Source of the DNA: Acidimicrobiia bacterium
GTDB lineage: Bacteria > Actinomycetota > Acidimicrobiia > Acidimicrobiales > AC-14
Length of the DNA stretch: 64,000 nucleotides
Direction of reading: 5' to 3'
NCBI GenBank assembly: GCA_023264995.1
Contig: JAHFUR010000020.1
Location: 1-64,000, forward strand
Positions 41,875 to 45,789 of this stretch are shown here, one piece after another. Each line of letters begins with the position of its first letter. Position 1 is the first letter of the stretch. The notes under the pieces were generated by a model. That model saw nothing but the letters and a program-made list of their open reading frames with translations. It was not told the origin of the DNA and did not search any database. The position numbers were made by a program, and so were the translations under genes.

Positions 41875-43140
41875 TTGAACAAACTGACACTGCGACTCGC
41901 CGGTGCGGCAGTGGCACTGGCTCTGACCGGTGCCGCATGTGGCAGCAGCGACGACAAGAGCACGTCGACGCAACCCACCACCGGTGCCACCACCGCGCCG
42001 TCGGCGGCGCCCTCGTCGAACACCGGCGCGGCCACCCTGCGGGCCGGCCTGACTGGGCTGCTGAGCGAGCACGTCTACCTGGCCGCGCTGGCCACCGGCT
42101 CGGCGCTGCGAGGGGACACCAAGGGCTTCGAGGCCTACGCCACCGCCCTGAACGGCCCGACCAACAGCAACACGTCCGACCTCGTCGCCGCCATCACCTC
42201 GGTGTACGGCGCTGACGTCGGCAAGGCGTTCGACGGCCTGTGGCGCAGCAACGGCCACATCCCCGGCTTCGTCGCCTACACCCAGGCCGTGGCCGCCAAC
42301 GACAAGCCCGCTGCCGACAAGGCCGTCGCCGACCTGCTGGCCTACGCCAAGACCTTCGGCACCACGATGAACTCGGTCAACAGCAACCTCCCGGCCGCGG
42401 CCGTCGAGGAGGGCGTGAAGATGCACATCACCACGCTGAAGGCCGTCGTCGACGCCCAGAAGGCCGGCGACCAGACCGCCGTCTACACGTCGCTGCGGGT
42501 GGCCTACGCCCACATGGCTGACTTCGCCGCCACCCTCGCTGGCGCCACCGTGGCCAAGTACCCGAACATCGACGGCTCAGCCACCTCCAAGGCGGCCACG
42601 CTCCGTGCCGGGCTCACCTCGTTGCTGCGGGAGCACGTCCTGCTCGCCGCCAGCGCCACCGGTGGTGCCCTCGGCGGTCGTGCCCCCCAGTTCGACGCCG
42701 CTGCCGCTGCGCTGAACGGCCCGACCAACAGCAACACCGCTGACATCGTCGCCGCCATCACCTCGGTGTACGGCGCTGACGTCGGCAAGGCGTTCGACGG
42801 CCTGTGGCGCAGCAACGGCCACATCCCCGGCTTCGTCGCCTACACCAAGGCCGTCGCCGCCAACGACAAGCCGGCTGCCGACAAGGCCGTGGCCGACCTG
42901 CTGGCCTACGCCACCACCTTCGGGACCACGATGAACTCGGTCAACAGCAACCTCCCGGCTGCCGCGGTGACCGACGCCATCAAGATGCACATCACCACGC
43001 TGAAGGCCGTCGTCGACGCCCAGAAGGCCGGCGACGCCACCCTGACCGCCACCACCCTGCGGGCCGCTGTGGCCCACATGTCCGACACCGCTGCGGTCCT
43101 CGCCGACGCCACGGTGAAGAAGTTCCCCGAGAAGTTCTAA
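41875..43140 (+). CDS. Lipoprotein made of two near-identical 188-residue helical repeats
   Basis: This 421-residue lipoprotein (MNKLTLRLAGAAVALALTGA with lipobox GAAC) has a Thr/Ser/Ala linker and two copies of a helical domain. Each runs from ATLRAGLT-LL-EHV-LAA to the last helix, with NGPTNSNT-D-VAAITSVYG and FDGLWRSNGHIPGFVAYT in both. The domain is known from uncharacterised Gram-positive proteins; conserved His (EHV, NGHIP, KMHITTL, AHM) suggest metal binding. A TTG start has GGAGG at the right distance. It lies between the cupredoxin and the SigK-type sigma factor. Function unknown. Confidence 0.75.
   Translation: MNKLTLRLAGAAVALALTGAACGSSDDKSTSTQPTTGATTAPSAAPSSNTGAATLRAGLTGLLSEHVYLAALATGSALRGDTKGFEAYATALNGPTNSNTSDLVAAITSVYGADVGKAFDGLWRSNGHIPGFVAYTQAVAANDKPAADKAVADLLAYAKTFGTTMNSVNSNLPAAAVEEGVKMHITTLKAVVDAQKAGDQTAVYTSLRVAYAHMADFAATLAGATVAKYPNIDGSATSKAATLRAGLTSLLREHVLLAASATGGALGGRAPQFDAAAAALNGPTNSNTADIVAAITSVYGADVGKAFDGLWRSNGHIPGFVAYTKAVAANDKPAADKAVADLLAYATTFGTTMNSVNSNLPAAAVTDAIKMHITTLKAVVDAQKAGDATLTATTLRAAVAHMSDTAAVLADATVKKFPEKF
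42031..43137 (+). repeat. In-gene tandem duplication, 564-bp unit
   Basis: Unit 1 (42031-42594) and unit 2 (42595-43137) align at a 564-bp offset with about 110 bp identical from 42184 to 42293 and long near-identical stretches after that. This indicates recent duplication or ongoing gene conversion. Confidence 0.85.
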
Positions 43141-45530: not shown

Positions 45531-45707
45531 TCAGCCTTGGCGGACCTTGCCTCTCACGTAGGCGGCGATCGTGCCCGTCGTGACCTGCACGTTGTGCTTC
45601 TTCTTCACGTGCTCGGCCACCTTGGCCATCAGCTCGTCCTCAGTGGACCCAGACCCCTGCCAACGGCAGGCGTGGTTCTCATCCCTTCAAGCGAAGCGGT
45701 ATGCCAC
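45531..45707 (-). CDS. DUF1059 protein with in-frame UGA at a conserved Cys (candidate selenoprotein or nonsense allele)
   Basis: A GTG at 45707 with a strong AAGGAGG site opens a 58-codon frame interrupted only by TGA at codon 7. With X for that codon it reads MAYRFAXRDENHACRWQGSG, then STEDELMAKVAEHVKKKHNV and a tail ending VRQG. This matches actinobacterial DUF1059 proteins, which have Cys at the X position (F-x-C-x-D) and a second Cys seven residues on, present here. The stop frame resumes perfectly, so no frameshift is needed. A hairpin with a G-U loop lies 22 nt after the UGA, the position of bacterial SECIS elements. It is either selenocysteine or a one-base nonsense change of UGC. Confidence 0.6.
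45656..45670 (-). promoter_or_regulatory. SECIS-like hairpin after the DUF1059 UGA
   Basis: In the minus-strand mRNA CCUGCC-GUU-GGCAGG makes a perfect 6-bp stem with G as first loop base and U as second. The loop is 22 nt past the UGA (45687-45689). Bacterial SECIS elements need a small loop with an early G at roughly this distance. Confidence 0.45.
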
Positions 45708-45789
45708 GGCTCCTCCTTGTGATGCGCGTCTCCGCGCGGTGATGTACTCGAGGGTATCCGGAGCCCCCCGCTACCTCGGATGGCGGTCT

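Follow-up and report, generated by a model that had tools for sequence, protein, structure and literature searches.

Our comparative sequence analysis indicates with high confidence that DUF1059 (PF06348) is a new selenoprotein family in Actinomycetota. The gene at the centre of this analysis lies in a window of 64,000 nucleotides, the whole stretch of DNA analysed, at the start of contig JAHFUR010000020.1 from an Acidimicrobiia bacterium (GCA_023264995.1). It is almost certainly a real selenoprotein gene, the Sec form of DUF1059, with its UGA codon 7 predicted to be read as selenocysteine (Sec). In the mechanism that we propose, SelB with Sec-tRNA would read the UGA, and a hairpin starting 16 nt downstream would direct this decoding. 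Beyond the gene itself, we infer Sec insertion in the cell, metal binding and a role for the protein, each with the confidence stated where it is discussed. The coordinates of the features are collected in Table 1.

Table 1. Features of the window gene (window coordinates) and of DUF1059 genes at other loci (locus coordinates).
Feature	Position	Strand	Remarks
Candidate selenoprotein gene, DUF1059 family	45531..45707	-	58 codons, GTG start, TGA terminal stop
Shine-Dalgarno sequence AAGGAGGA	45711..45718	-	Read directly, just 5′ of GTG
In-frame TGA, codon 7, predicted to be read as selenocysteine; first presumed metal ligand	45687..45689	-	
SECIS-like hairpin CCUGCC-GUU-GGCAGG	45656..45670	-	Stem from 16 nt, loop from 22 nt past UGA
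Codon 14 Cys, second presumed metal ligand	45666..45668	-	Inside hairpin; invariant 33/33
Codon 33 His, third presumed metal ligand	45609..45611	-	Invariant 33/33
Codon 38 His, fourth presumed metal ligand	45594..45596	-	Invariant 33/33
DUF1059 beside selD, G000:C36	L087 1219-1395 and 1501-2421		
DUF1059 beside selD, G002	L083 4961-6126		
UGA-form DUF1059 beside selD, G030	L068 2627-3511		
Adjacent UGA/Cys DUF1059 pair, G395:C70	L118 998-1384		
Adjacent UGA/Cys DUF1059 pair, G414:C25	L121 2420-2826		

The window gene and the recurrence of its UGA codon

The window gene (45707..45531, minus strand) translates as VAYRFA-UGA-RDENHACRWQGSGSTEDELMAKVAEHVKKKHNVQVTTGTIAAYVRGKVRQG, followed by the terminal UGA. 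With Cys at codon 7, the protein matches PF06348 over its full length at 50 bits, above the gathering threshold (cut-off 21.1), and the gene scores 39.8 bits against the same model in a six-frame scan; NCBIfam has no model matching the protein. An earlier sequence-only reading of this DNA had described a complete 58-residue DUF1059 frame with UGA in place of a family Cys, and both the translation and the PF06348 match bear this out. The strong ribosome site that it claimed is indeed present, with AAGGAGGA just 5′ of the GTG and also ahead of the orthologues of the window gene in two other genomes (G001 and G002). The host genome (G000, 97.95% complete) contains six DUF1059 matches, five without a stop and the window gene with one TGA.

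Judging by their motifs, the upstream neighbour of the window gene is probably a thermonuclease-type gene and the downstream neighbour a ChbG/YdjC-type deacetylase gene. Elsewhere in the window, 41875-43140 (+) encodes a protein of 421 aa in which a long stretch is repeated internally (VYGADVGKAFDGLWRSNGHIPGFVAYT is present twice); the genes that follow presumably encode a sigma factor and its anti-sigma factor.

A search of 298 genomes of the order Acidimicrobiales with the window protein, reading through stops, yielded 49 matching places in 27 genomes. Twenty-five of these have no stop and 24, from 16 genomes carrying six family labels, have exactly one, which is TGA in 24/24 cases, at the same codon, and never TAA or TAG. 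Each of the 24 UGA genes begins with a start codon and codes for 56-58 aa, and a Shine-Dalgarno-like sequence lies ahead of many of them. The two nearest relatives of the window gene, from congeners in separate assemblies (91% identity), carry the TGA and an identical hairpin; the outcome feared in the sequence-only reading, TGC without a hairpin in close relatives, is therefore not what is found. A profile built from the 24 order genes was then matched in 22 of 396 genomes drawn from the phylum. Outside the class there are 24 further UGA genes with the codon at the same place, in 12 genomes, of which 23 were recognised by a sequence pattern and one (L124) by eye; the pattern gave 48 hits over all loci, comprising these 23, the 24 order genes and one spurious hit (L063) that was dropped. 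The UGA form of DUF1059 thus totals 48 genes in 28 genomes, and analyses preceding the recognition of L124 use 47 UGA loci.

These counts bear on the explanation that had been named as the main alternative, namely that the window gene is a decayed Cys-type DUF1059 gene, with TGC turned to TGA by a nonsense mutation or a sequencing error. The change is a single base and stop-free DUF1059 genes exist in the same genome, as this explanation would have it, but the codon is TGA in 24 genes from 16 order genomes and never another stop, the coding constraint persists past the UGA and selA co-occurs with the UGA form (see below). A base-call error is very unlikely, since the TGA recurs across many assemblies. 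We reject the nonsense allele as the main alternative and consider it exceedingly improbable.

Homologues were also checked for Sec/Cys exchange at codon 7, as the sequence-only reading had proposed, and the exchange is seen, even at one conserved gene position. Residue 7 is Cys in 9 of the 25 stop-free order matches, these being the nine that were read, anchored on codon 7, and further Cys forms were identified. On a tree built from 80 short sequences, six Sec/Cys changes are required, at least three of them forced by well-supported branches, in an alignment whose 55 columns leave the tree poorly resolved. One gene position can hold the Sec form in some genomes and the Cys form in others: a Cys form follows two membrane-protein genes at ten loci (L041, L047, L090, L100, L102, L103, L108, L109, L113 and L137), and in two genomes UGA and Cys forms stand side by side behind small membrane-protein genes (Table 1).

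If the UGA were instead a true stop, it would either end a leader peptide or be followed by re-initiation of a shorter protein, for example at Met27; the window gene has ATG at codon 27, and 14 of 24 aligned UGA-form proteins have Met there. The other 10 have Lys or Ile, however, so residue 27 is no conserved start, and D9, H12, C14 and W16, all ahead of it, are invariant in the aligned UGA-form proteins. The stretch from the UGA to Met27 (codons 8-26) is constrained as protein, with pN/pS of 0.05-0.11 among the three congeners, based on small numbers (each pair differs by 3-6 synonymous and by 1-2 nonsynonymous changes). The pooled value for the 24 order genes (276 pairs) is 0.28, and the ratio lies below 1 in 274/276 pairs. 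The frame past the UGA is under purifying selection, and we give a true stop at codon 7 hardly any credence.

Two features of codon choice were observed next to the UGA of the order genes. In 23/24 an A directly follows the UGA, and the Arg8 codon is AGG or AGA in 20/21, compared with 6/59 Arg codons downstream, a bias to be read with the caveat that AGG is common throughout the first half of these genes.

The hairpin and the selenocysteine machinery

The window hairpin has a folding energy of -8.8 kcal/mol, and none of 200 shuffles folds as well; the 50 nt from the UGA taken as a whole are of unremarkable stability (z -0.79 against dinucleotide shuffles, 45/200 as good). The perfect stem described in the sequence-only reading is real, while the distance of 22 nt given for it is that to the loop, the stem starting at 16 nt. 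The published bacterial SECIS (bSECIS) model, as set out in the legend to Fig. 2 of a recent inventory, has a loop of 3-9 nt, a stem of 4-16 bp, a spacing of 16-37 nt, a G in the first two loop positions and an energy of -7.5 or lower, and some bSECIS elements depart from it (PMC13188914). The window hairpin agrees with this model in all respects (6 bp, loop GUU, 22 nt, -8.8).

A stem-loop with GU in the loop, the loop starting 21 or 22 nt past the UGA, is found in 24/24 of the order UGA genes. The loops are GUU, AGGUG or AGUUG, and some stems contain a 1-nt bulge. Counting GU-loop hairpins with E ≤ -6, a criterion chosen after the sequences had been seen, we find them in 23/24 of these genes, compared with synonymous recodings that average 5.4 and reach at most 10 of 24 (codon usage taken from the second half of the genes) or average 4.4 and again reach at most 10 (first-half usage, hairpin codons excluded). 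None of the 9 Cys homologues has such a hairpin. The full published model, including the energy limit of -7.5, describes 17/24 order genes when one 1-nt bulge is allowed. With this energy limit, recodings average 11.6 and reach at most 17 of 24 under second-half codon usage, and they average 4.0 and reach at most 8 under first-half usage; 5/9 Cys homologues also fall within the limit. A plain energy test of the order UGA genes gives a mean z of -0.98, with 3/24 at 0.05 or below. The energy tests are thus weak with second-half codon usage and clear with first-half usage. The GU-loop hairpin, for which conservation among homologues had been proposed as a check, stands far above the recoded controls and is under selection in the order.

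Codon choice within the hairpin shows how the GU is encoded: codon 15 of the 24 order genes is CGT (10), AGG (10) or AGT (4), each of which yields GU, and residue 17, where it is Ser, is TCA in 5/5, restoring the stem. We considered whether the hairpin is kept by the use of rare codons and dropped the idea. AGG, AGT and TCA are seldom used downstream, but in the first half of the genes they are frequent (AGG in 28/43 Arg codons; AGT 9 and TCA 4 of 24 Ser codons), and for this reason they prove little by themselves; CGT is rare in both halves (1/59 Arg codons downstream, 1/43 in the first half).

Outside the order, the GU hairpin is found in only 2/23 UGA genes, and the published model describes 1/23. 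At five of the loci there (L091, L093, L094, L095 and L097), a 7-bp hairpin of another type lies closer to the UGA and begins 8-9 nt from its T; this hairpin perhaps represents another SECIS class. The Rfam model SECIS_1 (RF00031) has no match in the window gene's own genome, and this result is uninformative because none of 14 controls is matched either.

The sequence-only reading had pointed to selA, selB, selC and selD as the genes to look for, and all four are present in the host genome. Its tRNA-Sec scores 66.4 bits (cut-off 47) and is also called by ARAGORN as tRNA-SeC(tca). The selA gene scores 396 bits and the adjoining selB 292.5 bits on its full frame; selD (358.7 bits) contains a UGA of its own, in the motif HGAG-U-ACK, so that this genome very probably decodes Sec elsewhere too. 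DUF1059 genes also occur beside selD (Table 1): in the host genome and in G002 a Cys-type gene immediately precedes selD on the same strand, and a UGA-form gene of G030 is arranged head to head (divergent) with selD.

Across the 28 genomes with the UGA form, selA is above cut-off in 24. These are 14 of the 16 order genomes, where G030 has a fragment and no selA was found in G191, and 10 of the 12 genomes elsewhere in the phylum, where G533 has a fragment at a contig end and no selA was found in G661. Among high-quality genomes (≥90% complete, ≤5% contaminated) selA is found in all 21 with the UGA form (12/12 in the order, 9/9 elsewhere), compared with 177/301 (59%) of the high-quality genomes and 230/396 of all genomes in the phylum draw (E 1e-50). 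The association is significant by Fisher's test (p 0.006 for high-quality genomes, 0.010 for all). The tRNA-Sec is found in 13/16 UGA-form order genomes (all but G038, G142 and G191), compared with 176/298 in the order overall (p 0.07 for all genomes, 0.017 for high-quality genomes). We regard the association with the Sec machinery as supportive and not decisive, because the tests take no account of relatedness and Sec is widely used in the order.

A third explanation is that the UGA is read through without selenium, with Trp or Cys inserted instead of Sec. The hairpins outside the order differ, which speaks for this explanation in that not every member has a standard SECIS. It is opposed by the presence of selA in every high-quality UGA-form genome against little more than half of the phylum draw, by an observed exchange that is with Cys, and by the GU-loop hairpin kept in the order beyond recoded controls. 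We judge selenium-free readthrough to be very unlikely. The recurrence of the UGA, the intact frame and the hairpin in 24 Acidimicrobiales homologues support the reading of the window gene as a candidate new selenoprotein.

Predicted metal site and gene context

The second family Cys (codon 14), said in the sequence-only reading to be kept, is invariant, as are His33 and His38, in 33/33 sequences (24 UGA and 9 Cys forms); the anchoring of the sequences means that all 33 have UGA or Cys at residue 7. An AlphaFold2 model made on the alignment (mean pLDDT 80) predicts strands at residues 3-6 and 17-20 and helices at 23-37 and 46-54. Together, the residue pattern and the order of the predicted elements suggest a zinc-finger-like metal site. 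A search of the PDB by sequence returned no relative and only a chance match to gelsolin, a Foldseek and VIA-align search with the AlphaFold2 model gave no significant fold match, and the Pfam family Sina_ZnF scores 18.9 bits, below its threshold of 32. In one UGA form (L124 3201-3368, G518:C77) His33 is replaced by Cys, as if the ligand set were U-C-C-H.

In the proposed site, Sec would be the first position of a Cys(Sec)-x6-Cys-x18-His-x4-His set on the predicted strand-strand-helix core. This set would form a single metal site, probably for zinc, with a selenolate ligand that could make it a fast redox-sensitive switch or a metal-handling site. In our view the likeliest chemistry is a metal site to which Sec contributes a selenolate ligand, and we hold this view about as readily as we doubt it. 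Alternatively, the selenoprotein may carry out thiol/selenol redox chemistry through a U7-C14 selenenylsulfide. C14 is invariant, and characterised selenoproteins mostly have a thioredoxin-like fold with a redox motif, according to section 7 of the inventory (PMC13188914). However, His33 and His38 are as invariant as Cys14, and His33 changes once to Cys; both points fit metal ligands better than a disulfide enzyme. We consider the redox pair quite possible, without favouring it.

To describe the gene context, we surveyed 47 UGA loci with 0.08 to 15 kb of flanking DNA on either side. At 18 of the 47, two small membrane-protein genes lie directly upstream on the same strand and in the same order. 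The flanking DNA of eight of these 18 contains a [NiFe]-hydrogenase large subunit; the other 10 have none in the flanks examined (0.08 to 15 kb). Pfam identifies NiFeSe_Hases in six proteins from six of these loci (two of them partial), hydrogenase small-subunit domains in one protein, and HypC and HypD in two proteins adjoining a seventh UGA gene; it assigns the CooC-like protein to the CbiA/ParA-type ATPases. None of the 13 query proteins is found within 15 kb of the window gene.

The group 1m [NiFe]-hydrogenase cluster described in Actinobacteriota includes a DUF1059 gene, a CooC-type ATPase and TPR and BirA homologues, and two small single-helix proteins are also listed; the main text of that paper contains no word beginning with 'selen' (PMC9561532). 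By analogy in gene content, the UGA-form clusters can be likened to group 1m. The part of the family found in the [NiFe]-hydrogenase cluster probably serves hydrogenase assembly or protection, a suggestion made with more doubt than conviction, and the window copy, which stands alone, may have another client. The combined proposal, in which Sec is a ligand of a C2H2-type zinc site acting as a selenolate redox switch, one part of the family is a dedicated component of the hydrogenase machinery and the use of atmospheric H2 by soil Actinomycetota is selenium-dependent, is put forward tentatively.

Novelty and comparison with known systems

The sequence-only reading knew of no selenoprotein described in DUF1059, and this holds within the inventory and the open-licence literature. 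The 2026 inventory of prokaryotic selenoproteins gives 119 families and subfamilies in its Table 1, and neither that table nor its main text contains DUF1059 or PF06348 (PMC13188914). The deep-Sep study of 2025 names nine new selenoprotein families, none of them called DUF1059 (PMC12013277). DUF1059 and selenoproteins occur together in no open-licence paper, a scope outside which lie most subscription papers and all of bioRxiv. The open-licence literature likewise yielded no report of selenocysteine as a zinc-finger or zinc ligand in a bacterial selenoprotein, of a selenoprotein with a high-affinity NiFe hydrogenase, or of selenocysteine with the group 1h hydrogenase of actinobacteria.

DUF1059 would add one family to the list of selenoproteins, with genes that are ordinarily annotated as truncated or missed. 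It would also tie selenium to a [NiFe]-hydrogenase gene cluster resembling one described as high-affinity, and through this link the oxidation of trace gases by some soil bacteria may require selenium. If the link is true, atmospheric-hydrogen oxidation by soil Actinomycetota depends on selenium.

The window protein matches DUF1059 (PF06348) over its full length and differs in that residue 7 is UGA-encoded. With C2H2 zinc fingers, DUF1059 shares a Cys(Sec)-Cys-His-His pattern and a predicted order of strand, strand and helix, but its U-x6-C spacing is longer than that of classical C2H2 zinc fingers. As in group 1m clusters, to the extent that these are described in PMC9561532, several of the UGA-form genes have small membrane proteins, CooC-like ATPases and hydrogenase subunits as neighbours, whereas the window gene is not in such a cluster. 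Like known bacterial selenoprotein genes, those of DUF1059 have an in-frame UGA, Cys homologues, accompanying sel genes and a SECIS-like hairpin. Unlike known bacterial selenoproteins, DUF1059 has neither UxxC nor CxxU and carries U-x6-C together with two His, which would place Sec at a metal-ligand-like position and not in a thioredoxin-type redox motif.
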